Shown here: positions 28,039 to 46,759 of the stretch, in pieces
Layout: the number at the start of each line of letters is the position of its first letter
Position numbering within the stretch: the stretch's first letter is position 1
NCBI GenBank assembly: GCA_030147525.1
Contig: JASBVF010000020.1
Location: 62,001 to 126,000, forward strand
Origin: Bacteroidota bacterium
GTDB lineage: Bacteria > Bacteroidota > Bacteroidia > Chitinophagales > Saprospiraceae
DNA: 64,000 nucleotides
Reading direction: 5' to 3'
Made by a program: the position numbers and the translations under genes
Notes under the pieces: model-generated
Seen by the model: only the letters and a program-made list of their open reading frames with translations
Database searches by the model: none
What the model was told of the DNA's origin: nothing

Positions 28039-28428
28039 ATGAGGAATTTAAAATTCATCACATCTGCAGCCCTGGCAGGCCTTTTACTTGTCTTTGCGGG
28101 CGGCTGTCAGTACGAAGAAATCATCCCGGAAATGCCTGACCCAGGTGTACAGGTCAGTTTTGCAGTTGATATTGTTCCAATTTTCAATCAGAGCTGTAAC
28201 GCATCCGGGTGTCACTCAAACGGAGGCATCAAGCCCAACCTGACAGCTGACAATGCCTATGAGGCACTCACCACCGGAAACTACCTTGATACGATCACTC
28301 CGGAAAACAGCCTGCTTTATCAGTGGATGTTGGGCAACAAAGGCGCACCGATGCCGATTTCAGGACCCAATCCTACCTACAACGCCAAGGTGCTGCTCTG
28401 GATTCAGCAGGGTGCACAAAATAATTAA
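28039..28428 (+). CDS. lipoprotein with single CX4CH haem-binding-like motif
   Basis: A 129-residue lipoprotein (lipobox AGGC, Cys23). The mature part contains VDIVPIFNQSCNASGCH, in which Cys53 and Cys58-His59 form a CX4CH motif, a spacing used by some Bacteroidota cytochrome-like domains instead of CXXCH. Met residues near GNKGAPMPISG could be the sixth haem ligand. It opens the operon behind the tandem regulatory sites, and the DUF5777 barrel follows after 24 bp. A small periplasm-facing or surface electron carrier is likely; actual haem attachment is unproven, since CX4CH is not a guaranteed substrate for CcsBA-type ligation. Confidence 0.72.
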   Translation: MRNLKFITSAALAGLLLVFAGGCQYEEIIPEMPDPGVQVSFAVDIVPIFNQSCNASGCHSNGGIKPNLTADNAYEALTTGNYLDTITPENSLLYQWMLGNKGAPMPISGPNPTYNAKVLLWIQQGAQNN

Positions 28429-28452
28429 CCGAATCACTTTAAAATTCTTCCG

Positions 28453-29352
28453 ATGAAAAATCATATTCCAACGCTCGTCCGGTTCTTATTAGGCGCATTC
28501 CTCCTGCTGGCTATCAGCAATGTTTCCCTCGCACAGGACGAAGAAGCGGACACCAAAGACTTGCGTCCGGTCAAAAATATGTTTGAAAGTATCTGGTTGA
28601 TTGATAACCAGACGGCCGTTGTACCCTACAAGGGTACGTTCGAATGGGACTTTCAGCACCGGTTCGGCGTCATGAATAATGGCTACGAGGATTTTTTCGG
28701 TCTCTACGCTCCGGCAAATATTCGCATAGGATTCAATTATGTTCCTGTTGAAAAACTGATGGTAGGCTTTGGCGTGACAAGACTTCCCTACACCTGGGAT
28801 GTCAGTGCAAAATACGCCATCCTGCAGCAGGCCCGTATGGGCGGCTCGCCGGTGAACCTGACTTACTACGTAAATGCGGCTTACGACGCCAGACGGGGAA
28901 GCGAGCTCCTGCTCAACAACAACGGTAACCGAATCTCTTACTTCCACCAGTTGATGGTTGCCCGCAAACTGACAGATAATTTCTCCATGCAGGTAGCCGG
29001 AAGCGTTACGCACTTTAATGCTGTGAGGGCGACCAGAGACAGTGGCGGCGAGGTTTTAAAAGAATTTAACAATGACCACATCAACGTATCAGTGGCAGCA
29101 CGCTACCGCGTAGGCGCATGGGTGAACCTGATCGCCAATTTCGATCAGCCCATCACGAAGCATGATCAGGTTGATCCGCAACCCAACATCGCATTCGGTG
29201 TGGAAATGACTTCCAGCGGCCACCAGTTTCAGGTCTTTCTGGGCAATTATTACAACATTCTGCCTCAGCAGAATACGCTTTTTAACAAGAATAAATTTGG
29301 CGATGGCGACATCCTGATCGGCTTCAACATTACCCGTCTGTGGAATTTATGA
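28453..29352 (+). CDS. DUF5777-family outer-membrane beta-barrel protein, copy 1
   Basis: A 299-residue protein with a signal peptide ending VSLAQ and the DUF5777 signature RPVKNMFESIWLIDNQTAVV, WDFQHRFG and LYAPANIRIGFNYVP, followed by regular barrel strands to the C-terminus (GFNITRLWNL). It is closely similar to the protein at 42666-43559. Members typically occur beside cytochromes and YceI proteins, as here, but no function is established. It is the second gene of the operon, 24 bp after the CX4CH lipoprotein. With fewer than 300 residues it is too small to sheath a long haem wire of the MtrB kind. Confidence 0.82.
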   Translation: MKNHIPTLVRFLLGAFLLLAISNVSLAQDEEADTKDLRPVKNMFESIWLIDNQTAVVPYKGTFEWDFQHRFGVMNNGYEDFFGLYAPANIRIGFNYVPVEKLMVGFGVTRLPYTWDVSAKYAILQQARMGGSPVNLTYYVNAAYDARRGSELLLNNNGNRISYFHQLMVARKLTDNFSMQVAGSVTHFNAVRATRDSGGEVLKEFNNDHINVSVAARYRVGAWVNLIANFDQPITKHDQVDPQPNIAFGVEMTSSGHQFQVFLGNYYNILPQQNTLFNKNKFGDGDILIGFNITRLWNL

Positions 29353-29389
29353 TTCAACCTGATTTTTTAAACCTTAATCACTTTAGAAA

Positions 29390-29635
29390 ATGAGCAACTC
29401 AAAAAAAGACAATCCATCCCGCAGGAAATTCTTTTCCCTGGCTCTTTTGGGCGGCGCAAGTTTAATTGCCAGCGAAGCCACTGCTCAAACAACTCCGGAG
29501 AGCGGTGAAAAAGTAAAAATGCTGACGCCAGACGGCAAACTGGTGGAAGTTGACAAAAGTGTTTTGGAACAATCCACAACGCACAAAAAAGCAAGCAATC
29601 AAGATATTTTAAACTGGACAAAAACAGTGAAGTAG
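29390..29635 (+). CDS. small Tat-exported protein sharing the linker module of the Fe-S subunits
   Basis: An 81-residue protein. Residues 1-35 form a twin-arginine signal (SRRKFFSLALLGG ending ATAQ). The mature part is only about 47 residues and contains GEKVKMLTPDGKLVEVDK, which matches GEKVKLLSPDGKLVEVDS in the Fe-S protein encoded 79 bp downstream and GEKVKLLSPDGEIVEIDS in its paralogue at 34192. It has no cysteines and so cannot carry a cluster. It looks like a stand-alone copy of the segment joining the Tat signal to the ferredoxin fold. It may be an assembly or docking factor that arose by partial duplication. Not a known family to me. Confidence 0.75.
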   Translation: MSNSKKDNPSRRKFFSLALLGGASLIASEATAQTTPESGEKVKMLTPDGKLVEVDKSVLEQSTTHKKASNQDILNWTKTVK

Positions 29636-29701: not shown

Positions 29702-29713
29702 CAAAATCATATC

Positions 29714-30661
29714 ATGCAGAATTCAGATAAAAATTCAGACAAAAATCGCCGGGACTTTCTTAAACTGGGTGCACTCGGCGCTGCTGCTGCCGCATGCGGC
29801 AGTATGCTTTGCTCCTCTTGCGGTGGTGCGCCTGAAGAAGGTGAAAAAGTCAAGCTTCTCTCTCCCGACGGAAAACTCGTAGAGGTGGATTCCAAACACC
29901 TCAAACATGTTCACCACTTGATAGGGGTTTCCGGTGAAGAGGCCCGTAAGGGGATTCCCGGTCGCAAGTTCGTGATGGTCATCGATTTGGCCCGTTGCAA
30001 AAATGCCCGTAAATGTATTACTGCCTGCCAGAAGATGCACCACATACCGGAAGACAAAGAATGGCTCCAGGTGAAGCTGATGCGAGACAACCCCGAATCA
30101 GCGCCATACTGGTTTCCAAAAACCTGCTTCCACTGCGACAACCCTCCCTGCGTGAAGGTATGTCCGGTAAATGCGACGTTTAAGCGGCAAGATGGCCTCG
30201 TGCTCATCGACAATGAACGTTGTGTCGGATGTAAGTTTTGCATGGCTGCATGCCCCTATTCCACCCGTGTTTTCAACTGGGCTGAACCCGAATTACCCAA
30301 TGAGTTTGAAGATATCCAATACTCTCCTGAGACCAGCTTCCCGAGCAAAGTGGGCACCGTGGAAAAATGCGACTTCTGTCCAGATATGGCCCGCCAGGGT
30401 CTGCTGCCTGACTGTGTGACGGCCTGCCCCAATGGTGTATTCTATTTCGGCGACGAAAACGAGGATGTCGTTTCAAATGGAGAGGAAACCGTGCGTTTCA
30501 GCCAGCTTCTCAAAGACAGGTCAGGCTACCGCTACATGGAAGACCTCGGCACCAAGCCAAGGGTTTGGTACCTGCCTCCTACAGACCGGATCTTCCCGGT
30601 CGAGCGTGGACTGGACGACCTTCCTGACAATATCAAAGATCGTTTTAAAGACGTCATGTAA
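29714..30661 (+). CDS. Tat-exported Fe-S lipoprotein, four-cluster ferredoxin subunit (PsrB/NrfC type), copy 1
   Basis: The 315-residue electron-transfer subunit has a Tat signal (NRRDFLKLGALG), then a lipobox-like AAAAAC28 and a second CSSC region, suggesting a lipid-anchored protein. Cysteines come in four groups: C95-C101-C105; C138-C141-C146-C150; C170-C173-C176-C180; C219-C222-C234-C238. The first group lacks the second Cys of the usual CxxCxxCxxxC (Ala98). Homologues pass electrons between a NrfD-type quinol protein and a periplasmic oxidoreductase. The next gene encodes just such a NrfD protein, but no molybdopterin subunit is present. Confidence 0.88.
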   Translation: MQNSDKNSDKNRRDFLKLGALGAAAAACGSMLCSSCGGAPEEGEKVKLLSPDGKLVEVDSKHLKHVHHLIGVSGEEARKGIPGRKFVMVIDLARCKNARKCITACQKMHHIPEDKEWLQVKLMRDNPESAPYWFPKTCFHCDNPPCVKVCPVNATFKRQDGLVLIDNERCVGCKFCMAACPYSTRVFNWAEPELPNEFEDIQYSPETSFPSKVGTVEKCDFCPDMARQGLLPDCVTACPNGVFYFGDENEDVVSNGEETVRFSQLLKDRSGYRYMEDLGTKPRVWYLPPTDRIFPVERGLDDLPDNIKDRFKDVM

Positions 30662-30668
30662 AATGCAT

Positions 30669-30739: not shown

Positions 30740-30743
30740 AAAT

Positions 30744-32111
30744 ATGAAAGCATCAATAGCAGTAAAAGAGCGGTTGAAAAATTTTGCTCCGCAAATTGAG
30801 AGAATCAGCACCATGACAAAAGTCTGGATCGGGCTTCTGGTCCTGGTTATTATCATAGGCTGTGTGGCGCTGTACCAGCAAATAGTCTATGGTCACGTTG
30901 TAACAGGTATGCGGGATCACGTGATCTGGGGGCTTTTCATCGCTAATTTTATTTTCTTTATCGGCATCAGCTATGCCGGCGCCATTCTGTCAGGGACTCT
31001 TTACGTTTTCAATGTGCCCTGGCGCAGGCCCATTGTTCGCATTGCCGGATTACTGACCATCGCTGCCGCCTTTATCGGCCCGATATTTATTTTGCTTTGT
31101 GTTGGGCGTTTTGACCGGCTACACTACCTGTTTATTTATGCCCGCCTGCAATCACCGATCATCTGGGACGTAATGGCGATAACCACTTACCTCGTGGGCG
31201 CCATTTTATATCTGTACCTCACGCTGATCCGTGACTTTTCCATTTACGGTGATGCAGATTTTTTGAAAATACCCGAATGGAAAAGGAAGCTTTATAAAAA
31301 ACTTTCACTGGGGTACAATGGTAAACCCGAGCAGCGCTCACAACTTAAAAATGCAACCCGGACGCTGGCCCTGGTAATGATACCGCTGGTCATCATTATT
31401 TCCTCCGTTCTGTCCTGGATCTTCGGGATGACCCTTCGGCCCGGCTGGCACAGTTCCATTTTCGGCCCCTACTTCGTTATTGCTTCCATTCTGACCGGGG
31501 TGGGTGTCATCATTATTTTAATGTGGACATTCAGACAACGTTACAAACTGGACAACTACCTGACAGACAAGCACTTTAAATACATGGGCTATATCATGTT
31601 GGTACTGTCGGGCATCTACGGATACTTCAGTTTTTCGGAATACCTGACCGGCTGGTATGTCTCTGAAAAATGGGATGCGGAGGTACTCGAAAAGCTTTTC
31701 AGTTTCCATGAATATGGCTGGTGGTTTCTGTTTTCAAACATCTTCGCCGTTGTATTGCCTATCATAGTGGCGGTCATACCAAAACTCAGAAAGCCCGGCC
31801 CTATCACATTTGCCGCAGCTTTCATGGTGTTGGCCATGTGGGTGAAAAGATATTTGATTGTAATTCCTACACTGGAAACACCGCTGGTGCCGATGCAGGA
31901 TACCAGAGAAGCCTGGATTCACTATACGGCAACATGGCAGGAATGGGCTTTGACGGCCACCGGTCTTGCTACCTTGATTTTGATTTACATCGTCTTCTCA
32001 AAATTTGTCACCATCGTACCGGTCTCCGACTACATTGACGACGAAGCTGAAAAAGTCGAAGCTCCGGCAACCGACAGTAAAACCGCTGTACCGGAGGCAA
32101 ACGTGAGTTGA
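30744..32111 (+). CDS. NrfD/PsrC-family 10-TM quinol-interacting membrane subunit, copy 1
   Basis: A 455-residue integral membrane protein with about ten transmembrane helices between residues 25 and 430. It includes the family region WGLFIANFIFFIGISYAG, then WRRPIVRIAG, and LQSPIIWDVMAITTYL in helix 4. The length and helix number fit the long NrfD forms (PsrC, HybB, ActC) that exchange electrons with quinones and hand them to an Fe-S partner. Its partner is the Fe-S lipoprotein gene 82 bp upstream. It has a polar, acidic C-terminal tail. The paralogue at 35198-36544 keeps the same layout. Confidence 0.88.
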   Translation: MKASIAVKERLKNFAPQIERISTMTKVWIGLLVLVIIIGCVALYQQIVYGHVVTGMRDHVIWGLFIANFIFFIGISYAGAILSGTLYVFNVPWRRPIVRIAGLLTIAAAFIGPIFILLCVGRFDRLHYLFIYARLQSPIIWDVMAITTYLVGAILYLYLTLIRDFSIYGDADFLKIPEWKRKLYKKLSLGYNGKPEQRSQLKNATRTLALVMIPLVIIISSVLSWIFGMTLRPGWHSSIFGPYFVIASILTGVGVIIILMWTFRQRYKLDNYLTDKHFKYMGYIMLVLSGIYGYFSFSEYLTGWYVSEKWDAEVLEKLFSFHEYGWWFLFSNIFAVVLPIIVAVIPKLRKPGPITFAAAFMVLAMWVKRYLIVIPTLETPLVPMQDTREAWIHYTATWQEWALTATGLATLILIYIVFSKFVTIVPVSDYIDDEAEKVEAPATDSKTAVPEANVS

Positions 32112-32246: not shown

Positions 32247-33188
32247 ATGCTGAATCATAAAATAAAACTGATGGTGGGTATTTTCGGTAAAATGATGCCG
32301 ATCCTGCTACTCATACTTTGGATGGCACCTACCAACTCTCTTTTCGCCCAAAACGAACCCGCCGAAGAGGAAGCCACTGAGGAAACTGAAGAGGAAGAAG
32401 TACCGGAAAAAATTGGCTCACGGGTAAGTCTGAGTATTACCCAACTGCCAGGAGATTCCGTTGAACTGACCGGAACGCTCAGGGCCAAGATTGATGGCGT
32501 CTGGAATAAAATCGATCGCGGGACATTGCAATTCTTTGCCGTAGGCGACGAAGACGAAACACTACTAGGAGAAGCAATCACCAACCCGGCAGGTAACGCT
32601 TCGGTGATCGCCAGTATCAAAGGGATACCTCTCAACAGCGAAGGCTACCAAACTTTTGCAGCCCGCTTTGCAGGCGATGACCAACTGGAAGAAAGCGACG
32701 ATGAAGTAGGTGTCCTGAAAGCGTTGATGACATTGACACCCGTGAAAGGCGACAGTACTTATACCATCTTCATAAAAGCGATGGCTCCAACCCCGGACGG
32801 AGATGTGCCTTTGATGGATGCAGAAGTTGCTGTATTTATCAAGCGCATGGTCGGCAGGCTGAAAGTAGGAGAAGGCATGACCGATGAAAACGGAGAGGCT
32901 GAAATCGAATTTCCGACCGACCTGTCAGGCGATGATCATGGAAACCTTTTCATCACCGCCAGAATCGAAGAGTTTGAGGAATACGGCAACCTTGCTGCTA
33001 CTACGGTACAGCCCTGGGGTAAACCTATTTCATCCGTCATTGAGGAATTACCGAGAGCATTATGGAGTCCTCACCCACCAGCCTGGATGGTTCTTACATT
33101 CTTTGTGCTGATGGGCACCGTTTGGGGAACATATGCAGCGATAGTCTTGAAGCTTAATCAGATAAAAAAAGCTGGCAAAACCGCCTGA
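32247..33188 (+). CDS. membrane-anchored Ig-like protein of the NrfD module, copy 1
   Basis: A 313-residue protein I cannot place in a named family. It has an N-terminal signal or anchor (about 10-35, ending SLFAQ), then a very acidic segment of alternating Glu and Thr residues. Two beta-sandwich-like domains follow (ELTGTLRAKIDGVWNKIDRG, then FIKAMAPTPDGDVPLMDAEV). One C-terminal transmembrane helix (about 275-300, WMVLTFFVLMGTVWGTYAAI) ends in a basic tail. The periplasmic part is thus tethered to the inner membrane. The paralogue at 36647-37546 holds the same slot between NrfD and cytochrome c genes, so it is probably a structural subunit of the complex. Confidence 0.7.
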   Translation: MLNHKIKLMVGIFGKMMPILLLILWMAPTNSLFAQNEPAEEEATEETEEEEVPEKIGSRVSLSITQLPGDSVELTGTLRAKIDGVWNKIDRGTLQFFAVGDEDETLLGEAITNPAGNASVIASIKGIPLNSEGYQTFAARFAGDDQLEESDDEVGVLKALMTLTPVKGDSTYTIFIKAMAPTPDGDVPLMDAEVAVFIKRMVGRLKVGEGMTDENGEAEIEFPTDLSGDDHGNLFITARIEEFEEYGNLAATTVQPWGKPISSVIEELPRALWSPHPPAWMVLTFFVLMGTVWGTYAAIVLKLNQIKKAGKTA

Positions 33189-33305: not shown

Positions 33306-33704
33306 ATGAAATCCAAGATTTTTTCAGCTTTCATTTTCATCCTTGCAGCTATCATCGGAATGGCCTTTGTTAATCCAGATCAGCAAACCAAGCCATGGCC
33401 GGTTCCTGACAAGTACAAAAAAATGGAAAACCCTGTGAAGTTTAACAAGTCTGCAGCTTCTGCGCTTTGGACAAAGCATTGTAAATCCTGCCACGGTAAA
33501 GAGGGCATGGGTGATGGACCAAAAGCTGCCCAGTTGGACACTCCTTCCGGCGACTTCACCACTTCCGCTTTCCAAAAACAGAGCGACGGTTCTTTGTTCT
33601 ACAAAACTATAGAAGGAAGGGACGATATGCCAGGTTTTAAAAAGAAAATACCGGATGACGAAGATATTTGGCAACTGGTTCACTACATGAGAACGTTTAA
33701 ATAA
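33306..33704 (+). CDS. membrane-anchored monohaem cytochrome c, copy 1
   Basis: A 132-residue class I cytochrome c. The N-terminal hydrophobic segment (about 5-22) has no clear cleavage site and probably anchors the protein. C59-K-S-C62-H63 is the haem-binding motif (CKSCHG), and a downstream GRDDMPGF Met is the likely sixth ligand. The C-terminal helix (WQLVHYMRTF) is typical of the fold. About 80 percent of visible positions match the protein at 37799-38197. It would accept electrons from the NrfD/Fe-S complex or pass them to a terminal acceptor. Confidence 0.9.
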   Translation: MKSKIFSAFIFILAAIIGMAFVNPDQQTKPWPVPDKYKKMENPVKFNKSAASALWTKHCKSCHGKEGMGDGPKAAQLDTPSGDFTTSAFQKQSDGSLFYKTIEGRDDMPGFKKKIPDDEDIWQLVHYMRTFK

Positions 33705-33783
33705 CTGCAGTTTATTACTTTAGTCAATCGACAATCCCGACCTTAGGAAAATCTTTTGGCGACCAGTATTACTTCAGACTTAC

Positions 33784-33818
33784 GCCTTGAAAGTTTAGCT
33801 ACTTTCAAGGCGTTTTTT
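33784..33818 (+). terminator. terminator closing the first module
   Basis: GCCTTGAAAGT, a 6-nt loop and ACTTTCAAGGC form a perfect 11-bp stem followed by GTTTTTT. Confidence 0.9.
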
Positions 33819-34191: not shown

Positions 34192-35136
34192 ATGTCACAG
34201 AATAACAACGAAGAAAACAATGGTCGCAGAAAGTTCATAGAAAAGGGGCTTCTTGCCGGCGCCCTCTCTGCCGCAACCCTTGCTACCGCTTGCTTTAAGC
34301 AGGATGGAGTGGAAGAAACAGGAGAAAAAGTAAAATTGCTGTCGCCTGACGGGGAAATTGTAGAGATTGATTCAGGTTATGTAAAGCCTATTCCTGATGA
34401 TATGATTGCTTATTCAAATAATATCAGACAAGGAATACCCGGCAGGAAATTCGTTATGGTAATCGACCTTTCCCGCTGCAAGAATTTGCGAAAATGCCAT
34501 GATGCCTGCGAAAAAATCCACTTCCTCCCTCCTGATAAAGAATGGTTGAAAGTACTCAAGATGCAGGACAATGAAGGCGCTTCTCCTTATTGGCAACCCA
34601 CCAACTGTTTTCACTGCGACCGACCGCCATGTGTAAAAGTCTGTCCGGTTAATGCCACTTTCAAAAGAACAGACGGAGTTGTCTTTATCGATACAGAACG
34701 ATGCATAGGTTGCAGGTTTTGCATGGTTGCCTGTCCTTACGGCGCCAGGTCTTTCAATTGGAATGAACCTAACATTCCGGAGGAAATCTACACCCAGCAC
34801 CACCACTCACCTGAGTCGATCATACCCAGAATCGGCACCGTTTCGAAATGTGATTTTTGCCCGGACATGGCCAGAAAGGGAGAACTGCCCCACTGTGTGA
34901 CCGCTTGCCCGAACGGGGTATATTACTTCGGTGATGAAAATGAAGATGCCGTCACAAATGGTTCCGAAACGCTCAAGTTGAGTGAATTGCTCACTGACCG
35001 TGCAGCATACAGATACATGGAAGAACTGGGCCTCGAACCACGTGTATATTACCTTCCACCAGTAAATCGACTCTTTCCTTTTGAAGATGATGAGTATTCT
35101 AAAAATTATGGCACGTTGATAAATCCAGCAGAATAA
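34192..35136 (+). CDS. Tat-exported Fe-S lipoprotein, four-cluster ferredoxin subunit, copy 2
   Basis: A 314-residue paralogue of the 29714 protein. Tat signal GRRKFIEKGLLAG with lipobox LATAC34. Cluster ligands: C96-C102-C106; C139-C142-C147-C151; C171-C174-C177-C181; C220-C223-C235-C239. As in copy 1, the first motif has a non-Cys residue (Leu99) where the second Cys is expected. The linker GEKVKLLSPDGEIVEIDS is also conserved. The NrfD paralogue follows at 61 bp. Codon usage and base composition are slightly more AT-rich than in copy 1, so the duplicates are not recent, identical copies. Confidence 0.88.
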   Translation: MSQNNNEENNGRRKFIEKGLLAGALSAATLATACFKQDGVEETGEKVKLLSPDGEIVEIDSGYVKPIPDDMIAYSNNIRQGIPGRKFVMVIDLSRCKNLRKCHDACEKIHFLPPDKEWLKVLKMQDNEGASPYWQPTNCFHCDRPPCVKVCPVNATFKRTDGVVFIDTERCIGCRFCMVACPYGARSFNWNEPNIPEEIYTQHHHSPESIIPRIGTVSKCDFCPDMARKGELPHCVTACPNGVYYFGDENEDAVTNGSETLKLSELLTDRAAYRYMEELGLEPRVYYLPPVNRLFPFEDDEYSKNYGTLINPAE

Positions 35137-35197: not shown

Positions 35198-36544
35198 ATG
35201 GCAAACCATTCAACACAACCTGCTTTGTCCCGGTTTGATGAAGAATTAAAATCAATCAGCAATGATCTTTTACCAAGGCCTTTTGGGCGAAAGGGTAAGA
35301 TTTGGACCTGGCTGCTATTGATCATAACCGCAATTGGTATTTTCTTCTATATTCAGCAATTAAAAGACGGACTTATTGTAACTGCCCTGAGGGATTATAC
35401 ACCTTGGGGCATTTATATTTCCAATTTCGTTTTCTTCGTTGCCATCAGCCTTGTCGGATCACTGATCAGTGCCATCCTGAAGCTAACAGGCGCTTCCTGG
35501 CGTACACCTATGACGAGGATTTCGGAAATCATAGCTGTAGCAGCCATTATTTTCGCTGCCATTACGATCACCATAGATATGGGCCGGCCGGACCGGTTTT
35601 TAAATCTTTTCTTTCATGGCAGAATGCAGTCCCCGATTATCTGGGACGTAATTGTCATCACTACCTACCTGATTCTCAGCTTGTTATTTCTTTACATACC
35701 AATGATTCCGGACCTGGCCTACATGAGAGACAATTTTAAAAACGTCCCGAAATGGCAGCAAAAGCTCTATCGGAAATTGGCAATCAACTGGAAAAATTCC
35801 CCAGGACAAAAAGACAGGATGAAGCAAATTATTTTAATCCTGTCTGTCATGATTATTCCGGTAGCATTCGGAATTCACACCGTCACTTCCTGGCTCTTTG
35901 CAGCCACCCTTAGGCCGGGTTGGGATAGCACAAACTTTGGTCCTTATTTTATTTCCGGAGCTTTTGTGGTAGGGGCGGGAGGTGTGATCGTAGCCATGTA
36001 TGTATTCTGGAAGTATCTGGATATGAAAAAATATTTTACGGATGCCCATTTTGATAAAATGGGTAAGCTGCTGGTCTTATTATCCCTGGTGTATTTTTAT
36101 TTCAATATCAATGAATATTTTATTCCGGCTTATAAGTTGAAAGGCATAGACAGTGCACACCTTCAGGAGCTTTTCGTCGGATCTTATGCCTGGTTATTCT
36201 GGTCAACACAATTGATCGGCATGATCATACCAATCATTGTTCTATTGTTCAAGAAAGGAAGAAAACCTTTCCCCATGTTCATTATGTCCTTATTCGTTAT
36301 AGTAGGCGCCTGGACCAAGCGTTTCCTGATTGTGGTTCCAACATTAAACCACCCATATATCCCCATACAACGTGTTCCGGAAGAATGGCTCCATTATATT
36401 CCGACTATACCCGAATGGTTCATCACCATAGGTACATTGACCGGAGCCTTGCTGATCATTACACTTTTTGTGAGGTTATTTCCGGTTGTTCCGATTGTGG
36501 AAACTGCTGAAGAACACGTATCGCATGAGGAAGAGGACAAGTAA
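35198..36544 (+). CDS. NrfD/PsrC-family 10-TM quinol-interacting membrane subunit, copy 2
   Basis: A 448-residue membrane protein with about ten helices, matching the 30744 protein in order and motifs (WGIYISNFVFFVAISLVG, WRTPMTRISE, MQSPIIWDVIVITTYLILSL). It is presumed to oxidise or reduce menaquinone and exchange electrons with the Fe-S lipoprotein encoded immediately upstream. The C-terminal His/Glu-rich tail (EEHVSHEEEDK) differs from copy 1. Paralogues that keep the same neighbours suggest the whole module was duplicated as a unit and then diverged. Confidence 0.88.
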   Translation: MANHSTQPALSRFDEELKSISNDLLPRPFGRKGKIWTWLLLIITAIGIFFYIQQLKDGLIVTALRDYTPWGIYISNFVFFVAISLVGSLISAILKLTGASWRTPMTRISEIIAVAAIIFAAITITIDMGRPDRFLNLFFHGRMQSPIIWDVIVITTYLILSLLFLYIPMIPDLAYMRDNFKNVPKWQQKLYRKLAINWKNSPGQKDRMKQIILILSVMIIPVAFGIHTVTSWLFAATLRPGWDSTNFGPYFISGAFVVGAGGVIVAMYVFWKYLDMKKYFTDAHFDKMGKLLVLLSLVYFYFNINEYFIPAYKLKGIDSAHLQELFVGSYAWLFWSTQLIGMIIPIIVLLFKKGRKPFPMFIMSLFVIVGAWTKRFLIVVPTLNHPYIPIQRVPEEWLHYIPTIPEWFITIGTLTGALLIITLFVRLFPVVPIVETAEEHVSHEEEDK

Positions 36545-38197: not shown

Positions 38198-38217
38198 TTT
38201 CACCAATCATTCAAAGA

Positions 38218-38256
38218 AAACGCCGTGGGAGCTGCTCAGCTCCTGCGGCGTTTTTA
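38218..38256 (+). terminator. terminator closing the second module
   Basis: AACGCCG..GGAGCTG and CAGCTCC..CGGCGTTTTT form a long GC-rich stem with a TG/TG internal mismatch, followed by a T-tract. Confidence 0.85.
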
Positions 38257-38397: not shown

Positions 38398-40137
38398 ATG
38401 GCAGCAAATCACACCAACCGTCTCCAATCAAATCATGGAGAATCACACACTAACGGCAGCCGGGGATTCAAACGGGTAAGCTACCTGCTCTGGCTATTAA
38501 TCCTGTCCGGCCTCGTAGCTCAAAACAGTGAAGTTTTTCTTCAAAAAAATGGTGCATCAGAATGGGTGAGCCTGGCAGCAGGGTTTACGGTACTCGCAGT
38601 CTTTGGGGTGCTTTTTTTCAAACCCGTTTACAAAATCATCGATACGCCGCACTTTGCTATCTCCAGCTTGCTGGTGATAGCCGTTGGCACTGCACTGGGC
38701 ACATTCGTTTCCCAAACTGTGCCTTACGAAGTTTTCACCGAGCGTTACGGAGAAACAGGAAGTGCAGTCCTTCGCTTCTTCCAACTTGACGATGTTTTTC
38801 ACAGCTGGTGGTACGTGTCGTTGTACGCCGCATTGGGACTTAGCCTGGTGAAAATTAGTCTGAAGAAAAAACTGAGCCGGGAAAACATCGGTTTCCACCT
38901 GGCCCACCTCTCCCCTATCATTATACTTTTTGGTTTTTGGGTGGATTATTTTTACGGCTTCCGGGGCATCATTCAATTGGAAGAAGGACAAGCCAAAAAC
39001 GTCGTTCAGGTGTACGACGGCCACACCAATTATCTGAAAGACAGCACGGAACTACCTTTCAGCATCCAACTCGACAAATTTCAATTCGAAAGACACGACC
39101 CTGACTACCGCCTTCAAATCTGGCGCATGGAACAGGAAGCCCATGCCCAGGAAATTTCCCTACACGAAAATCAAAAACCTGCAAAGCCGGAGATTCTCGC
39201 TTCGTTTCCGCTGGAATTGATGAAACCCCGCAAAATATATGGAACGGACATTCGCTTCCGGCTCACGGATTTCTATCCGGATTTCACTTTCGAATACACC
39301 TACCCTGACAATATCGATACCATCGAAGCACGGGACCCCGGGATTCAACTGGAGTTGAAAACGGACTTTGGTGACGCAGCATTGCAATTGCGTGCCAATC
39401 AGCCTGGCAGGGATAAAATCGCAGATGAAGGTATCGTAGGCGCCTGGATGGAATTTTACTGGGAATTGCCTGCCGAGTTGGTTGCGGGGCTGAACAAACA
39501 GCCTGTCGACAAAAAATTGGCAGAAGTGAACCGGGTAATTTTTGCAGGAAACGAACGCAGGATTTACTTTCTCATTGATAAAAAACTGACTGTAGAACCG
39601 CTGGAACCCGGCAAGTTTTACCCCATCGAAAGCAAGGAGGGCGCCGGTTTTACCATTTTCCACTTGTTCCCGGATGCAGCACATCTGCAGGCGATTCCAA
39701 CCACGAAAAGCGAAGAGCTGAACAACCCTGTCGCCATGGTCGAGATTTGGAACAAAACGATACCCGGCTCCAAACAGGCCTACCTCTACCCCGGCAACGC
39801 CGAGCGAAGGAGCGGGAGTTTTGAAATCCCCGGCACCCCTTATTTCCTGGCGCTGGAGTCGTTCAAAGACATGGAAACCAAGTTTTTCAAAAGCGACCTG
39901 ACCGTTTTGGATAAAAATGGCGAAGCCGTACACCAGCAATACGTGAAAGTAAACGAGCCCATGCTGTACAATGGTTACCGTTTTTACCAAACAGACTACG
40001 ACCCGAATCGGCCCACCTACTCAGGCATCGGCGTGAGCCATGAGCCGGGACTTTACGTGATTTACTTTGGATTCTTTATAATGGTCGCAGGTATTGCGCA
40101 GATGTTTTACGGTAAAACACGCAAGCAGGAAGTTTAG
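38398..40137 (+). CDS. ResB-like cytochrome c maturation protein (CcsB)
   Basis: A 579-residue membrane protein of System II cytochrome c biogenesis. Hydrophobic helices lie at about 28-50, 58-80, 90-112, 140-160 and 175-195; a large periplasmic domain follows (about 200-550), with a closing helix near the C-terminus (LYVIYFGFFIMVAGIAQMFY). His residues in IGFHLAHLSPII and MLYNGYRFYQTDYDPN typify ResB-like proteins, which with CcsA carry haem across the membrane and attach it to CXXCH motifs. The CcsA gene follows about 150 bp downstream, so these genes would mature the cytochromes encoded on both sides. Confidence 0.85.
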   Translation: MAANHTNRLQSNHGESHTNGSRGFKRVSYLLWLLILSGLVAQNSEVFLQKNGASEWVSLAAGFTVLAVFGVLFFKPVYKIIDTPHFAISSLLVIAVGTALGTFVSQTVPYEVFTERYGETGSAVLRFFQLDDVFHSWWYVSLYAALGLSLVKISLKKKLSRENIGFHLAHLSPIIILFGFWVDYFYGFRGIIQLEEGQAKNVVQVYDGHTNYLKDSTELPFSIQLDKFQFERHDPDYRLQIWRMEQEAHAQEISLHENQKPAKPEILASFPLELMKPRKIYGTDIRFRLTDFYPDFTFEYTYPDNIDTIEARDPGIQLELKTDFGDAALQLRANQPGRDKIADEGIVGAWMEFYWELPAELVAGLNKQPVDKKLAEVNRVIFAGNERRIYFLIDKKLTVEPLEPGKFYPIESKEGAGFTIFHLFPDAAHLQAIPTTKSEELNNPVAMVEIWNKTIPGSKQAYLYPGNAERRSGSFEIPGTPYFLALESFKDMETKFFKSDLTVLDKNGEAVHQQYVKVNEPMLYNGYRFYQTDYDPNRPTYSGIGVSHEPGLYVIYFGFFIMVAGIAQMFYGKTRKQEV

Positions 40138-40290: not shown

Positions 40291-41130
40291 ATGTTCGAAA
40301 GTTTCTATTATACCTCCATGTTGTTCAAGGTCACTTTTGTGCTTTACCTGGTCGCATTGCTGGCCTATTTCGTTGGCACCTTTGCAAAAGGTAAAATATT
40401 CGGCACCATCGCTATTTCACTGTTTGGCATTGCCTTCCTCAGTTGCACCGTTCTCATCGTTGACCGTTGGATCGAGGCAGGTCGGCCGCCGTTTAAAACG
40501 TTTTTCGAATCGCTGATTTTTGCGGTCTGGACGATCTCGCTGGTCAGCATCATTGCGGAGCAAAAATTCAAAGTACGGTTGGTAGGTTTGCTTTCAGCCT
40601 TGAGTATTGCTGGAATATTCCTCTATGCCCTGACCAAACGGGACGTGGAAATCATTGCCCTGCCACCCGCTTTGCAGACGTGGATGTTCATCCCTCACGT
40701 CATTTCCTACTTTCTGGCTTATGGGGCGCTGTTTGTGGCGGGTATTGGCGCTGTGTTATTTTTGGTTTTCCCGAAGGGCATGGCGTCGCACCACACGTTG
40801 GGAGAACAATCGAGGATCGACTTCAGCGTATTTACCTACCAGATTGCGAAGCTTGGATTTCTGTTTCTAACAGCAGGTTTACTGCTCGGCGCCTGGTGGG
40901 GCCAGAGCGCCTGGTCGAACTACTGGGGCTGGGACCCGAAGGAAAACTGGGCCTTGATTACCTGGCTGATCTTTGCTGCCTACCTGCATTTCAGAAATAT
41001 CAAATCGATGGACCAAAAGAAACTTTCCTGGGTCGTTATCATCGGCGTTGCAGCTATTATTTTCACTTACCTGGGTATGGATTATCTGCCTACTGCCAAC
41101 GACAGTATGCACGTTTACTCAAATGGTTGA
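40291..41130 (+). CDS. ccsA: CcsA-family cytochrome c assembly protein
   Basis: A 279-residue membrane protein with about eight helices and the tryptophan-rich haem-handling motif WGQSAWSNYWGWDPKENWAL (about residues 205-224). Conserved histidines (HVISYF, MHVYSNG) are the usual haem ligands. Together with the ResB-like protein it forms the CcsBA haem lyase. It follows the ResB gene on the same strand after a repeat element and ends at a good terminator at 41204. Confidence 0.9.
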   Translation: MFESFYYTSMLFKVTFVLYLVALLAYFVGTFAKGKIFGTIAISLFGIAFLSCTVLIVDRWIEAGRPPFKTFFESLIFAVWTISLVSIIAEQKFKVRLVGLLSALSIAGIFLYALTKRDVEIIALPPALQTWMFIPHVISYFLAYGALFVAGIGAVLFLVFPKGMASHHTLGEQSRIDFSVFTYQIAKLGFLFLTAGLLLGAWWGQSAWSNYWGWDPKENWALITWLIFAAYLHFRNIKSMDQKKLSWVVIIGVAAIIFTYLGMDYLPTANDSMHVYSNG

Positions 41131-41203: not shown

Positions 41204-41240
41204 GAGGAGCATCGGACAAGATGCTCCTTCTTCTTTTTAC
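41204..41240 (+). terminator. terminator after CcsA
   Basis: AGGAGCATC, a 6-nt loop and GATGCTCCT form a stem followed by TCTTCTTTTT. Confidence 0.8.
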
Positions 41241-41416: not shown

Positions 41417-42484
41417 ATGAGAGTCAAGATTTCATTTCTCTGGTTACTCAGTTTAGCGCTCGTATTTGCTCTCGCTTCTTGTGAAGGCGATGCTGGCGAT
41501 ATTGGTCCTGCCGGCCCTGCTGGCCCTACCGGCCCCGCCGGCCCCGCTGGCCCCGCAGGTGGAGACCTCGCTCAAAACTGTATTGATTGCCACGGCAATA
41601 ACCAACTCATTACCGCAAAATTGTTCCAGTGGGAACACTCAACGCACGCAACGGGTGGTCACTATGAAAGAAATGCCACCAGCTGCGCAATTTGCCACAC
41701 CAGCCAGGGCTTCCTCGAAAGAGCTGCCACAGGTGCTCAGCAAACAGCTGCTGCTATTGAGAATCCACTGCCACAAAACTGCTACACCTGCCACAAAATC
41801 CACACCACGTACACGGCTGATGACTGGGCTTCAACCCAGCCCAATCCGGTAACATTCTGGGTTGGAGGCGAAACCAAAGATTTGGGTAAAGCAAACATCT
41901 GTATCAGCTGCCACCAGGCACGTGTACCATCTCCGGCACTGCCTGATGCTTCCACGGGAGGATCTATTACCGTCACCAACAAACGTTATGGACCACACCA
42001 TGGTGCACAGGGCATGATGCTTACCGGCGCAGGCGCTTACAGAGTGGGAACCGGCTACGAAAACTCTTCGCACACTACATTAGTCACAAATGGCTGTGTT
42101 ACTTGTCACATGGCAACCGCCCAGGGTACTGCCTCAGGTGGTCACACCTTCAATGTAGCCGATGAAAGCGGCCGCATCAACACAGCAGGATGTGTCGCTT
42201 GTCACTCTGATGCTGCCGCACTCAACACTAAGATTAATGACACACAGGCTGAAATTGCTGATCTGCTTCAACAACTTGAAACCAAGTTGATCGAAAAAGG
42301 CATCCTCAATCCTAACGATCTGCCTTATGCTGCGGCAAGCAGTAGTAACCCGCTTGTATTAACTGAACACCAGGCAGGTGCTTTGTGGAACTATCAATAC
42401 GTACGAGAAGATCAAAGTATGGGCATCCACAACTACAAGCTTGCGAAGAAGCTTTTGCAAAACTCCCTCGCAGCTTTGAACTAA
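41417..42484 (+). CDS. hexahaem cytochrome c lipoprotein with collagen-like stalk
   Basis: A 355-residue lipoprotein (lipobox LASC, Cys about 22). Directly after the Cys is a GPAGPAGPTGPAGPAGPAG collagen-like stretch, followed by six CXXCH motifs: CIDCH, CAICH, CYTCH, CISCH, CVTCH and CVACH, all within about residues 50-260. Several free His residues (HSTHATGGHYE, GPHHGAQGM, HTTL) could be distal ligands. The C-terminal 100 residues are helical. It is probably an outer-membrane-anchored multihaem electron carrier on a stiff stalk, perhaps the terminal exit of the electron-transfer island. The acceptor is unknown. Single-gene transcript with tandem regulatory sites and terminator. Confidence 0.88.
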   Translation: MRVKISFLWLLSLALVFALASCEGDAGDIGPAGPAGPTGPAGPAGPAGGDLAQNCIDCHGNNQLITAKLFQWEHSTHATGGHYERNATSCAICHTSQGFLERAATGAQQTAAAIENPLPQNCYTCHKIHTTYTADDWASTQPNPVTFWVGGETKDLGKANICISCHQARVPSPALPDASTGGSITVTNKRYGPHHGAQGMMLTGAGAYRVGTGYENSSHTTLVTNGCVTCHMATAQGTASGGHTFNVADESGRINTAGCVACHSDAAALNTKINDTQAEIADLLQQLETKLIEKGILNPNDLPYAAASSSNPLVLTEHQAGALWNYQYVREDQSMGIHNYKLAKKLLQNSLAALN

Positions 42485-42665: not shown

Positions 42666-43559
42666 ATGAAACGAACAATTCAAACCGTGTTACTGGCTGC
42701 TATCTGGACAACTCTCCTGATGCTGGGTAGTTTATCGCTTCAGGCTCAGGATGAAGATACCCAGCCGGAAAAAGATACCCGGCCAGTAAGAAATCTGTTC
42801 GAAAGTATTTGGCTGATCGATAACCAAACTGCCGTTGTCCCAATCAAAGGAACATTGGAAATGGATATTCAGCACCGCTTCGGTGCCGTAAACGACAATA
42901 AATTTCATGACCTCTACGGATTATTTGCCGCCTCAAATATCCGTCTCGGATTTAATTATGTGCCGATTGATAAACTACAGGTAGGCTTCGGTTTTACGAA
43001 AGAAAAACTGCTATGGGATTTCAACGCCAAATACGCCATTTTTCAGCAAGGCCGTGAAGGTGGTTCGCCAGTCAGTGTTACCTATTTTGTCAACATGGGC
43101 ATTGATACCAGGCTGGAAAAGCAATATAAATTTGATGAAACAGTTGACCGGTTCACTTACTTCCATCAGTTGATGATAGCCCGGAAGATAACGGATGACT
43201 TCTCGCTACAGGCGTCCGGCAGTCTTTCCTGGTTCAACTTCAGAGAACTTAACTACGATGCAGAGGGAACTCCCCTTGGCAGAGATGGTAACCGGCATTT
43301 TAACGTGGCATTTCTTGGCCGGTACAAAGTTACCCCTACCCTTGGTTTGATTGCCAACGTTGACTTACCGATCACTGACCAGGAGTTCATTGATGAAAAG
43401 CCCAATATCAGCTTCGGGGTCGAAATGGTATCCAGTTCTCACGCATTTCAGATCTTCCTCGGAAGATACAAAAGCCTCGTACCGCAATACAATAACATGC
43501 TCAATCAGAACAGTGATTTCATGATTGGTTTCAACATGACCAGACTTTGGAATTTCTGA
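42666..43559 (+). CDS. DUF5777-family outer-membrane beta-barrel protein, copy 2
   Basis: A 297-residue paralogue of the 28453 protein with the same signature (RPVRNLFESIWLIDNQTAVV, MDIQHRFG, LFAASNIRLGFNYVP) and a C-terminal strand GFNMTRLWNF. Signal peptide ends LSLQAQ. As in copy 1, it follows a haem lipoprotein gene. The 180-bp gap in front includes a terminator; no Crp/Fnr-type site of the standard layout is seen, so its promoter is unclear. Function unknown; a porin or docking role next to surface cytochromes is inferred. Confidence 0.82.
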   Translation: MKRTIQTVLLAAIWTTLLMLGSLSLQAQDEDTQPEKDTRPVRNLFESIWLIDNQTAVVPIKGTLEMDIQHRFGAVNDNKFHDLYGLFAASNIRLGFNYVPIDKLQVGFGFTKEKLLWDFNAKYAIFQQGREGGSPVSVTYFVNMGIDTRLEKQYKFDETVDRFTYFHQLMIARKITDDFSLQASGSLSWFNFRELNYDAEGTPLGRDGNRHFNVAFLGRYKVTPTLGLIANVDLPITDQEFIDEKPNISFGVEMVSSSHAFQIFLGRYKSLVPQYNNMLNQNSDFMIGFNMTRLWNF

Positions 43560-43943: not shown

Positions 43944-44525
43944 ATGAAAAATTTAACCATCCTCCTCACATTAATCACTTGTAGTTTAATACTAAATGCA
44001 CAGGACGATTTTAAGGTCGTCAACAGTAAAATTGAAATGGCCGGAACATCTACTCTTCACGACTGGACGGCTGACGTTACCAAAGCTTATGGCTCAGGAA
44101 AACTGAGTATGACCGCCGGCGAACTGACCGGCATCGATGCGCTCGCTATCACGATGGATGCAAAATCCATCAAAAGTGAAAAAGGTTCTACGATGGATAA
44201 CAACATCTACAAAACCTTGAAAGCTTCCAAATACCCGAGCATCAACTTTACACTGACAAAGGTGAATTCGCTGACCAAAAGAGGCAGCAGCTACGAGATC
44301 AAAGCCGATGGCAAACTGACCATCGCAGGTACTACGAAAACGATTTCACTCCTGGTCACAGGCCAGGAAAGCGGGGGAAACATCATCCTCAAAGGCTCGA
44401 AGACCCTGAAAATGACGGACTACAACCTGGAACCTCCCGTCATGTTCCTGGGCACTTTGAAAACTGCCGATGATGTAACCATCAAATTTGAAACCACCCT
44501 TTCCAAATCAAATCAGATCCGTTAA
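43944..44525 (+). CDS. YceI-family periplasmic lipocalin-like protein, copy 1
   Basis: A 193-residue protein with a signal peptide ending LILNAQ and the YceI fold: FKVVNSKIEMAGTSTLHDWT at the start, KYPSINFTLTKV in the middle (the F-T-L-T strand), and a C-terminal GTLKTADDVTIKFETTLS. YceI proteins bind isoprenoid chains such as quinones in a hydrophobic pocket. Beside quinol-linked NrfD complexes, a quinone-binding or quinone-transport role is plausible. It shares a transcript with the porin gene 47 bp downstream. Confidence 0.88.
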   Translation: MKNLTILLTLITCSLILNAQDDFKVVNSKIEMAGTSTLHDWTADVTKAYGSGKLSMTAGELTGIDALAITMDAKSIKSEKGSTMDNNIYKTLKASKYPSINFTLTKVNSLTKRGSSYEIKADGKLTIAGTTKTISLLVTGQESGGNIILKGSKTLKMTDYNLEPPVMFLGTLKTADDVTIKFETTLSKSNQIR

Positions 44526-44572
44526 TCAATCATATTTTAAAAACACTCCTTTCACAATTAAATAATCGAAAA

Positions 44573-45910
44573 ATGAAAAAATCACTGTTGCTAATCGTAT
44601 CCATGGCTTTTGCCATCTTATTTACCTCACAACTTAACGCACAAAACGACCTCCCGAACTTCCGTCCTTACGACCAGCGTGGCGTGAATGTGTTTGAAAC
44701 ACCTAAGGATAACAACACCTCCGAAGAAGGCCTCAAAGTCAAAGTCGGTGGTAACTTTACCCAGCAATTTCAGGCACTCAGCCACGAAACCAAGGCTGTA
44801 AGCATCGACACTGACGGCGACGGTAAGATCGACATCAACAACGACCTGATCGGATTGTCCAATGGCTTTAACCTGGCCACTGCCAACCTGAACATCGATG
44901 CCTTGCTGATGGACGGTGTGAGACTGAACCTCGTCACTTACCTTTCTTCCAGGCACCACCCGGAAACATGGGTAAAAGGCGGTTACCTGCAATTTGACAA
45001 GCTTCCTTTCCTCAACAGCTCTTTCGCTGACAAGGCAATGGAAAATATTACTATCAAGGCAGGTCACATGGAAATCAACTACGGCGACGCCCACTACCGC
45101 AGAAGCGATAACGGTGCTACACTTTACAACCCTTTCGTTGAAAACTACATCCTCGATGCGTTCACAACTGAAATCGGTGCGGAAGTGATCTACCAGAAAA
45201 ACGGCATCATCGCAGTAGGTTCTGTTACCGGCGGTGAAATCAAAGGCGACGTGCTCGAACAGCCAGCTTTGAATCCTGACGGTCCGGACAACCTGAATAC
45301 CAAAGCTCCATCACTCATTGGTAAACTGGGCTACGACAAGCAGATCAACGACGACCTGAGAGTACGGGTAACAGGCTCTGCTTACTACACTGCCAGCTCC
45401 AAGAGCAATACGCTCTACGGTGGCGACCGTACCGGCTCACGTTACTACCTCGTTATGGAAAATACCGATGCCAAGACTGACACCAAGTTTACCTCCGGCC
45501 GTTACAACCCGGGCTTCAGAGACAAAGTGGCTTCCTTCATGGGTAACGTTTTCCTGAAATACAAAGGCGTTGAATTCTTCGGAACTTACGAAAATGCCAA
45601 CGGACGTGGCTCCAACGAGAGCGAAATGAGAAACGCCACACAATTGGCCGGTGACCTGATCTTCCGCTTCGGTAAAAACGAAAACTTCTACGTCGGTGGC
45701 CGTTACAACACCCTGACCGCAGAAGTCGGAGGCAACGCAGACGATGTTACGATCAACCGGGTAGCAGGTTCTGCAGGCTGGTTCATCAACCAATACATCC
45801 TCGTGAAACTGGAATACGTCAACCAGGAGTACAAAGATTTCGCCCAGACAAGCATCCTGAATGGTGGTAAATTCAACGGTGTAATGTTTGAAGCGGCAAT
45901 TGGCTTCTAA
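44573..45910 (+). CDS. outer-membrane porin-like beta-barrel protein
   Basis: A 445-residue protein with a signal peptide ending SQLNAQ and long runs of alternating polar and aromatic residues (LKVKVGGNFTQQFQALSHET, NITIKAGHMEINYGDAHYRR), ending MFEAAIGF with a terminal Phe, the signature of outer-membrane barrels. DTDGDGKIDINND near residue 80 looks like a calcium-binding loop of EF-hand style. The family is a Bacteroidota porin-like group without assigned substrate. It follows the YceI gene in the operon, so it may supply the outer-membrane channel of the electron-transfer island. Confidence 0.78.
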   Translation: MKKSLLLIVSMAFAILFTSQLNAQNDLPNFRPYDQRGVNVFETPKDNNTSEEGLKVKVGGNFTQQFQALSHETKAVSIDTDGDGKIDINNDLIGLSNGFNLATANLNIDALLMDGVRLNLVTYLSSRHHPETWVKGGYLQFDKLPFLNSSFADKAMENITIKAGHMEINYGDAHYRRSDNGATLYNPFVENYILDAFTTEIGAEVIYQKNGIIAVGSVTGGEIKGDVLEQPALNPDGPDNLNTKAPSLIGKLGYDKQINDDLRVRVTGSAYYTASSKSNTLYGGDRTGSRYYLVMENTDAKTDTKFTSGRYNPGFRDKVASFMGNVFLKYKGVEFFGTYENANGRGSNESEMRNATQLAGDLIFRFGKNENFYVGGRYNTLTAEVGGNADDVTINRVAGSAGWFINQYILVKLEYVNQEYKDFAQTSILNGGKFNGVMFEAAIGF

Positions 45911-45940
45911 GAATAACTTAGAGATGGAATTTTAATGCAG

Positions 45941-45980
45941 AAAAGCTCCGGTTCGTCACATGGATGAACTGGAGCTTTTT
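45941..45980 (+). terminator. terminator after the porin gene
   Basis: AAAAGCTCCGGTTC, an 11-nt loop and GAACTGGAGCTTTTT form a stem with one G-T pair and a T-tail. Confidence 0.85.
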
Positions 45981-46126
45981 ACAACTCAGCAGGCGAGTTT
46001 GCGAGTAGACTCAAAGAGACAGACTGATTTTCAATTGATTAATCCCGGCATTTTCGCAAACCACTTTTTTCTGGATATCATCAGTCAACACTAAATAATT
46101 TCACCATGACACAACAGCCGTCTTTC

Positions 46127-46759
46127 ATGAAATATTTGCAAATTGTAATCCTCAGCGCAATAGTTACGCTGACAATGAACGCACAACCCAGCATTCTAAT
46201 GGTGAAAAAGAGTGCAGATCGTAATTTCCGTATCAGCCGGAACAGTTCCCTCAAACTCGAAGGCCAAACCAACATCAATGGTTTTACCTGCGACTGTAAT
46301 GAGGTGTTTCAGCCCCAGTCTCTTTCCTTCGAAGTGCGGGATGCCAGCGGACTGATTGCTAATTTCAAAGAAACCAGCCTCAATATTTCCGTAAAAAACC
46401 TCGACTGCGGTAACAAACTGATGAATAAGGATTTACAAAAAGCGCTGAATGCCGAAACCCACCCTTTCATCTCCATCGAGTTGCTGCAAATCAAACAGGA
46501 TCATTGCAACAGGTTGACCGAAATGAAAGACTGGATCAAAGTTAAAGCCCTCATTCGCCTCAACATCAACGGATGCAACCAGGACTACTGGCTCGACATT
46601 ACCACCAAAAAACTGGCTGATAACCGCTTCCGTTTCATCGGCAGCAAAAAGTTCTACATGAGTAGTTTTGGCGTCACGCCTCCAACTGCAATGATGGGTA
46701 TGGTGAAAGTGGAAGACGAAATCAAGATCAACCTCGATCTGGAAATTGCGGTCGATTAA
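46127..46759 (+). CDS. YceI-family-like secreted protein, copy 2
   Basis: A 210-residue exported protein with a signal peptide (MKYLQIVILSAIVTLTMNAQ). The mature part resembles YceI: SSLKLEGQTNINGFTCDCNE near the start, NAETHPFISIELLQIKQ in the middle and a C-terminal VKVEDEIKINLDLEIAV. It differs from the 43944 protein by five or more cysteines (CDC near the N-terminus, Cys after LD, DHC, GC), which may form disulfides. An earlier ATG at 46106 would add seven residues. No Crp/Fnr-type site of standard layout is seen in the preceding 195 bp. Confidence 0.72.
   Translation: MKYLQIVILSAIVTLTMNAQPSILMVKKSADRNFRISRNSSLKLEGQTNINGFTCDCNEVFQPQSLSFEVRDASGLIANFKETSLNISVKNLDCGNKLMNKDLQKALNAETHPFISIELLQIKQDHCNRLTEMKDWIKVKALIRLNINGCNQDYWLDITTKKLADNRFRFIGSKKFYMSSFGVTPPTAMMGMVKVEDEIKINLDLEIAVD

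Follow-up and report, generated by a model that had tools for sequence, protein, structure and literature searches.

Complexes that contain an NrfD subunit and no molybdopterin catalytic subunit have been described, namely alternative complex III (ACIII; ActABCDEF) and the Nrf, Nhc, Dsr and Mcc complexes (available parts of PMC8076601), and molybdenum-free NrfCD complexes had been remarked on earlier (available parts of PMC3534657). The locus analyzed here is an island of plus-strand genes at positions 28039-46759 of a 64,000-nucleotide stretch (the window) from a Bacteroidota bacterium of the Saprospiraceae, located on contig C49 of a 7.08 Mb genome in 59 contigs. In this island a set of four genes is found twice. 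Each set, here called the module, encodes a four-cluster iron-sulfur (Fe-S) protein, an NrfD membrane subunit, an immunoglobulin-like (Ig-like) subunit and a monohaem cytochrome c. Window proteins were scanned against Pfam and some of them against NCBIfam, and PDB profile comparisons and AlphaFold2 single-chain models were added. The chances were judged to be even that each set forms a quinol:cytochrome c oxidoreductase of minimal make-up and without molybdenum, belonging to the ActC branch, with electrons probably passing on to haem lipoproteins of the outer membrane.

Relation of the module to described NrfD systems

With ACIII the module shares an NrfD of the ActC branch with equivalents of the quinone-site Ser, Asp and Arg395, a periplasmic four-cluster Fe-S protein, a monohaem cytochrome c, and the lack of an active molybdenum centre. 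In contrast to ACIII, its operon is devoid of the pentahaem ActA, the molybdopterin-like domain of ActB, ActD and ActF, none of which was found among the window genes scanned or in the first 30 recurrent neighbour clusters of 94 related loci. The module also adds the Ig-like membrane subunit and a small protein with a twin-arginine translocation (TAT) signal, and its odd cluster motif is the first one (CX5CX3CX3H), whereas in the ActB of the same genome it is the third (CIGTRYC). Judged from its genes, the module would work like a small quinol:cytochrome c oxidoreductase, being a relative of ACIII and not ACIII itself.

Like NrfABCD, DsrMKJOP, NhcABCD and MccACD, the module would use an Fe-S protein and NrfD as a pair trading electrons with c-type cytochromes. 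It differs from them in its monohaem cytochrome c, its ActC-like NrfD and its own Ig-like subunit. Copy 1 remained under all the NCBIfam cut-offs, with 180.9 against 200 bits for DsrO, 78.5 against 350 for DsrP and 127.1 against 377.6 for NrfC; the same was found for QrcC and QrcD. As in the porin-cytochrome conduits of the MtrCAB type, a haem lipoprotein gene is paired with the gene of a barrel predicted to be of the outer-membrane type. Here, unlike in those conduits, the barrel has 12 strands, the lipoprotein is monohaem and there is no decahaem protein, the pair being known from genes and a single-chain model. In Geobacter, the parallel quinol-oxidising modules ImcH, CbcL and Cbc4 feed one periplasmic cytochrome pool, and Cbc4 uses an Fe-S protein and NrfD. 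Several quinol modules may likewise lead to one cytochrome pool in the present case, whereas the conserved module contains no multihaem subunit.

The initial annotation knew of no named system with this make-up, and neither a name nor a description was found in the open literature searched, within the parts of it that were available. No group of this kind is named in section 5 of PMC8076601, although some members may fall within its ActC/F class, and the module is not described in the available parts of PMC3534657 or PMC13374861. Among the open papers searched, none named DUF5777 (the barrel family of this island), none joined NrfD with DUF5777, and none combined NrfD, YceI, cytochrome c and Bacteroidetes.

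Both NrfD proteins of the window belong to the NrfD family, scoring 102.3 and 115.5 bits against PF03916 (cut-off 25.8). NrfD 1 (30744-32111, plus strand; PF03916 E = 5e-29) had ActC (6f0k_C) as its best PDB match, with E = 1.4e-43; NrfD 2 is encoded at 35198-36544, plus strand (PF03916 E = 4.8e-33). A profile built from 16 module NrfDs gave 253 bits with ActC of R. marinus (6f0k_C) and 57 with ActF. The FastTree analysis covered 110 NrfDs, including 92 of the 101 from the related loci (length filter; five cut loci removed). The 94 module sequences formed one clade (support 0.985), which grouped with ActC and ActF (support 0.90); the module and ActC alone were not a clade in that tree.

Ser145 and Asp150, corresponding to Ser164 and Asp169 of the ActC quinone site, were kept in all 94 module NrfDs, and the equivalent of Arg395 in 93 of them. 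The position of ActC His139, which is apparently needed for quinone protonation (available parts of PMC8076601), was occupied by Asp in 88 of the 94, by Cys in five sequences (type 1), and by His in eight ActC sequences. The two window copies represent both forms: NrfD 1 is of type 1, with Cys, and NrfD 2 of type 2, with Asp127.

The Fe-S proteins are encoded at 29714-30661 (copy 1, with a TAT signal; Fer4_11 and other Pfam matches) and 34192-35136 (copy 2, Pfam), both on the plus strand. CX5CX3CX3H was the first motif in both (its His being residue 109 in copy 1) and in all 94 full-length members of the family in the related loci (95 labelled), followed by twelve further invariant Cys residues in three 4-Cys motifs. 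The classic first-motif pattern was additionally matched in 2 of the 94, and it is the one present in the ActB of this genome. The Fe-S protein linked to the Nap-type enzyme of this genome has CX5CX3C as in the module, without the His. In the arrangement of PsrB and NarH, it is the membrane-remote cluster that the first motif binds, which suggests that the altered cluster is the distal one and would face cytochrome c.

The absence of a molybdopterin catalytic gene from the island, as initially annotated, was borne out, with no PF00384 match among the operon genes scanned. The premise that NrfD and a four-cluster Fe-S protein normally serve a molybdopterin enzyme proved too narrow, since the NrfD is ActC-like and molybdenum-free NrfD complexes are known from the two sources cited at the outset. 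The contrary case, a molybdenum partner encoded elsewhere, was checked by a PF00384 search that covered 14 of the 15 genomes then known to carry the module (G054, 72% complete, was excluded). Matches over the cut-off occurred in 11 of the 14. G185 had a single match, under the cut-off and 2.3 kb from its ACIII-type NrfD, and G441 and G205 had none at E 0.001. Because the other 11 genomes do have matches, the test rests on these three. It rules out an obligate molybdenum partner elsewhere as a requirement, other catalytic families not having been searched for: a PF00384 partner is not required. Quinol-linked electron transfer without a molybdopterin partner is supported.

Gene order of the island and of related loci

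All genes named in the initial annotation were found as open frames. Pfam backs the two DUF5777, Fe-S, NrfD, cytochrome c and YceI proteins, as well as ResB, Cytochrom_C_asm and the multihaem domains. On the plus strand the order is: CX4CH lipoprotein, DUF5777, small TAT protein, module A, module B, ResB, CcsA, hexahaem lipoprotein, DUF5777, YceI, porin-like protein and YceI.

The island begins with a putative outer-membrane haem lipoprotein binding one haem c (28039-28428), which has a single CX4CH at residue 53 and no Pfam match. Its lipobox Cys23 was kept in 98% of 77 aligned members. DUF5777 copy a follows at 28453-29352 (Pfam). At 29390-29632 an 81-residue protein with a TAT signal, overlooked in the initial annotation, was read from the DNA. 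Its family was present in 59 of the 94 related loci, and a GEKVK-L-PDGKLVEVD motif is common to it and the N-terminus of the Fe-S protein.

In module A, the Fe-S protein and NrfD 1 are followed by Ig-like subunit 1 (32247-33188), with a sub-threshold Big_3_5 match (E = 5e-4) and, by analogy with copy 2 to which it was aligned, a C-terminal membrane helix. Monohaem cytochrome c 1 (33306-33704; PF13442/PF00034) matched cytochrome c552 in the PDB (9vr0, 5.3e-17). In module B, Ig-like subunit 2 (36647-37546) gave no match in the Pfam scan and was modelled by AlphaFold2 (predicted local distance difference test 91.0) as beta-sandwich domains with a C-terminal membrane helix at residues 265-298. It is followed by monohaem cytochrome c 2 (37793-38197; Pfam).

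Two genes of system II cytochrome c maturation come next, ResB (38398-40137; PF05140, 6.6e-39) and the CcsA/CcsB haem lyase (40291-41130; PF01578, 2.8e-39; NCBIfam CcsB 168.7 bits, under the cut-off of 187.6). The hexahaem lipoprotein (41417-42484) shows six CXXCH motifs, a lipobox Cys followed by EGDAGD, a collagen-like linker, a Cytochrome_C7 match and a weak C-terminal match to Cytochrom_C552. DUF5777 copy b (42666-43559; PF19089, 4.7e-61) precedes YceI protein a (43944-44525), which matched PF04264 at 4e-17 and, at 2e-13, the profile built for YceI proteins of the usual DUF5777 cassette. YceI protein b (46106-46759; PF04264, 1.2e-8) closes the island. Between the two YceI genes lies the open frame of 445 residues that had been labelled a porin (44573-45910). 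The frame stands; Pfam gave no match, and porin is a conjecture. The family was found in 2 of the 94 loci, and the same trio occurs in L032 and L058.

Hairpins with T-rich tails probably split the island into four transcription units, judging from the DNA. They lie between modules A and B (33782-33813, plus strand; 13-pair stem and T tail, fold z -7.1), after module B (38216-38255, plus strand; 18-pair stem and T tail) and, in a weaker form, after CcsA (41204-41229, plus strand; 10-pair stem and T-rich tail). The hairpin scan gave 33 sites resembling terminators, where shuffled sequence led one to expect 20.7; the proposed borders therefore rely on the long stems, and shorter hairpins mean little.

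The module had been called duplicated, which holds in an old sense only. The two copies are paralogues, with identities of 78% for cytochrome c, 58% for the Fe-S protein, 37% for NrfD and 31% for the Ig-like subunit. In the tree, NrfD 1 fell (support 1.0) into a deep clade of few members, together with the NrfDs of L024, L025 and L026 and one of the L053 copies; NrfD 2 grouped among the common type. A recent duplication of the whole module was ruled out by this tree and the identities. Recent copying is possible for the cytochrome c genes by themselves. At 78% identity the two cytochromes are closer to each other than to any family member shorter than 160 residues (at most 68%), which points to a single cytochrome pool, probably shared by the two membrane modules.

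The conservation of the gene order in other Bacteroidota, a check proposed with the initial annotation, was examined with an NrfD-alignment scan of genome contigs. At least 411 relatives were confirmed among the 588 pattern matches listed and 80 were kept, 79 of them from Bacteroidota and one from an 'uncultured bacterium'. The synteny counts started from 101 NrfD genes in 94 loci, of which 65 genes had enough flank and 36 were dropped; L027 and L044 are seemingly the same contig, so that at most 93 loci are independent. The order was kept. Same-strand neighbours of the 65 genes were the Fe-S protein (64), the Ig-like subunit (64), cytochrome c (58), the CX4CH lipoprotein (50), DUF5777 (49) and the small TAT protein (41). 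The Ig counts are favoured because L024-L037 were chosen by the Ig protein, L038-L117 being chosen by NrfD.

Two cassettes could be distinguished. The order of the inner-membrane cassette is (cytochrome c), small TAT protein, Fe-S protein, NrfD, Ig-like subunit, (cytochrome c). That of the outer-membrane cassette is an EB_dh or YceI-like lipoprotein, the CX4CH lipoprotein and DUF5777, which was modelled as a 12-strand barrel in a single-chain prediction. The CX4CH gene came next in 34 of 34 EB_dh-labelled and 23 of 39 YceI-labelled genes. DUF5777 stood directly after a haem-protein gene in 80 of 82 cases, 77 of the CX4CH family and three hexahaem, with a haem motif in 79 of the 80. Two outer cassettes were present in L040, L042, L047, L054, L077 and L089. 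The EB_dh label was backed by Pfam in the three representatives scanned; this genome has no PF09459 match. In the 30 best DUF5777 loci (L154-L183) the usual order was haem lipoprotein, (tRNA_anti-like OB protein), YceI and DUF5777.

The number of Asp/Glu residues at positions +3 to +7 past the lipobox Cys was 1.62 for YceI-like proteins, 1.29 for hexahaem, 1.24 for EB_dh and 0.95 for CX4CH proteins, against 0.54 for other lipobox-like open reading frames. This control includes false lipoboxes, and the pattern was present in 60 of 86 CX4CH, 21 of 34 EB_dh and 24 of 36 YceI-like proteins; the values are not leaned on as a surface-export signal.

The module was present in 20 of 198 genomes of the class (E 1e-8). 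A search of lower sensitivity, using Ig-like copy 1 as single query, matched 6 of 61 genomes of the family and 10 of 395 of the phylum.

Possible destinations of the electrons

In the proposed mechanism, quinol, probably menaquinol, would be oxidised at a site of NrfD on the positive side of the membrane (P side). Electrons would then travel through the four Fe-S clusters on the periplasmic side, one of them with an unusual ligand set of three Cys (plus His), and the Fe-S protein would reduce the small cytochrome c, which may be kept close by the membrane-anchored Ig-like subunit. Up to this point the proposal, a quinol:cytochrome c oxidoreductase, is considered likely. From cytochrome c, electrons would probably reach the outer membrane, where haem lipoproteins with their partner DUF5777 barrels would receive them, and from there an acceptor located at this membrane or outside. 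At the level of gene order, the regular association with haem lipoproteins and barrels speaks for the outer membrane as destination; transfer to this membrane or beyond, for which that association is the evidence, is put forward tentatively, with a somewhat less than even chance of being correct. The two copies would feed one cytochrome pool from different quinone sites, carrying Asp or Cys.

In its widest form the proposal describes a trans-envelope pathway across the Bacteroidota. A stripped, molybdenum-free relative of ACIII would have its distal cluster (three Cys and an invariant His) tuned to a monohaem cytochrome c, and would be joined to an outer-membrane cassette in which a haem lipoprotein and a 12-strand barrel are combined with quinone- or haem-binding YceI/EB_dh lipoproteins. 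In genomes with two modules, sites of the Cys and Asp types would choose between quinol oxidation regimes. This extension is regarded as doubtful.

Several observations weigh against the proposed pathway. On the side of NrfD, the support for ActC and ActF as each other's nearest relatives is just 0.43, ActC Asp253 is not conserved in the module sequences, and the conserved Ser does not discriminate, because the ActF of this genome has it too. Among known structures, those of cytochrome c552 match the module cytochrome c better than ActE does (ActE E = 9e-4). On the side of the outer membrane, the single haem of the CX4CH lipoprotein is too few to span the membrane, unlike known porin-cytochrome complexes. 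The hexahaem family occurs in just 7 of the 94 loci, and no catalytic or extracellular terminal protein was conserved with the module in the related loci. DUF5777 was present in 179 of the 198 class genomes, even without the module and usually with a haem lipoprotein and YceI; being near-universal in the class, this family may have no tie to the module. In addition, the named hosts include mainly aerobic genera (Niastella, Chryseolinea).

In the main alternative, the module would act as a second complex III whose cytochrome c supplies periplasmic enzymes such as nitrous oxide (N2O) reductase or cbb3 oxidase, with a separate outer cassette that is adjacent by chance. This is a possible explanation, though an unlikely one. 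Among the 198 class genomes, NosZ was found in 15 of the 20 with the module and in 55 of the 178 without it (Fisher p = 2.6e-4). The association was seen in cbb3-negative genomes (6/7 against 12/79); in cbb3-positive ones it was 9/13 against 43/99 (p = 0.14), and four of the six cbb3-negative genomes with NosZ and the module belong to one genus (g243). All these p values are too small, because the genomes are related to each other. The module was not associated with cbb3 itself (13/20 against 99/178, p = 0.48), and NirK was over the cut-off in 0 of 20 genomes with the module and 14 of 178 without it (p = 0.37). Five nos regions were compared, a sixth (L185) being left out; none contained the module, and weak matches to the module cytochrome (12-19 bits) were seen in three. 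A second quinol:cytochrome c branch is plausible, since the ACIII operon of this genome adjoins genes that by eye are of an aa3-type oxidase (L119). DUF5777 cassettes also exist without the module; against a chance adjacency, many loci have the outer cassette immediately 5' of the module, with both on one strand. In this genome, matches to FixO, of the cbb3 oxidase, and NosZ were located about 7 kb apart on contig C19 (L184).

Electron flow in the reverse direction was regarded as improbable. In that case haem proteins would oxidise an outside or periplasmic donor, and electrons would enter the quinone pool through the Fe-S protein and NrfD, as in Qrc, which has an NrfD-like subunit and reduces quinone from cytochrome c3 (available parts of PMC8076601). 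The upstream location of the EB_dh and CX4CH proteins would agree with this direction. However, the nearest NrfD relative of known function is ActC, from a quinol-oxidising complex, and no conserved donor enzyme was found in the related loci.

It is slightly less probable still that the hexahaem lipoprotein is the terminal reductase of this island, both modules being its quinol dehydrogenases in the manner of NrfABCD. It is encoded in the same island and has a weak similarity to the C-terminal part of the cytochrome c552 nitrite reductase. On the other hand, two of the seven loci with its family are one contig, terminator-like hairpins lie in between, and the NCBIfam nitrite reductase model (PRK11125) gave 24 bits against a cut-off of 595.

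Finally, the refuting case named with the initial annotation, in which a catalytic enzyme encoded elsewhere, molybdopterin-dependent or not, uses these subunits, is highly improbable: this genome does hold five PF00384 matches, but those on C54 (by eye Nap-type) and C48 (by eye PsrA/PhsA-type) have Fe-S and NrfD genes of their own, that on C59 is the ACIII subunit, that on C50 has an Fe-S-NrfD fusion about 2.4 kb away, the frame on C56 (915 residues) lacks a TAT-like start and any match to the Fe-S or NrfD families within its 4.3-kb locus, and G441 and G205 carry the module without any PF00384 match (the genome-wide search was for PF00384, not for partners of other families).

Two of these loci were described further. 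At L118 (C54) the PF00384 enzyme is accompanied by two 4-haem cytochromes, a CX5CX3C Fe-S protein and an NrfD of another branch. At L005 (C50) the Fe-S protein is fused to NrfD in one chain of 540 residues, next to a flavoprotein that by eye is of the sulfide:quinone type.

Flanking genes and meaning of the module

Outside the island, positions 15242-18727 of the window encode a protein of 1161 residues that combines SprB repeats with a CHU_C type IX secretion signal. Two minus-strand genes encode proteins with a Por secretion tail: one of 725 residues (22541-24718) with a vanadium chloroperoxidase-like domain, likely a secreted enzyme of the haloperoxidase/phosphatase type, and one of 761 residues (46778-49063) with a sub-threshold peptidase C25 match. 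Further downstream, a minus-strand frame of 4020 residues (49899-61961) appeared by eye to be a hybrid peptide/polyketide synthase, and the adjoining frame at 49072-49821, also by eye, a phosphopantetheinyl transferase.

The gene family behind the module is widespread and has no name in the open literature searched. Soils, waters and wastewater are rich in Bacteroidota, and about one tenth of the sampled genomes of the class carry the module. Its presence in genomes without a PF00384 enzyme means that NrfD together with an Fe-S protein is not to be read as the sign of a missing molybdenum reductase. The pairing with the near-universal DUF5777 offers a direct way to probe the role of that barrel.

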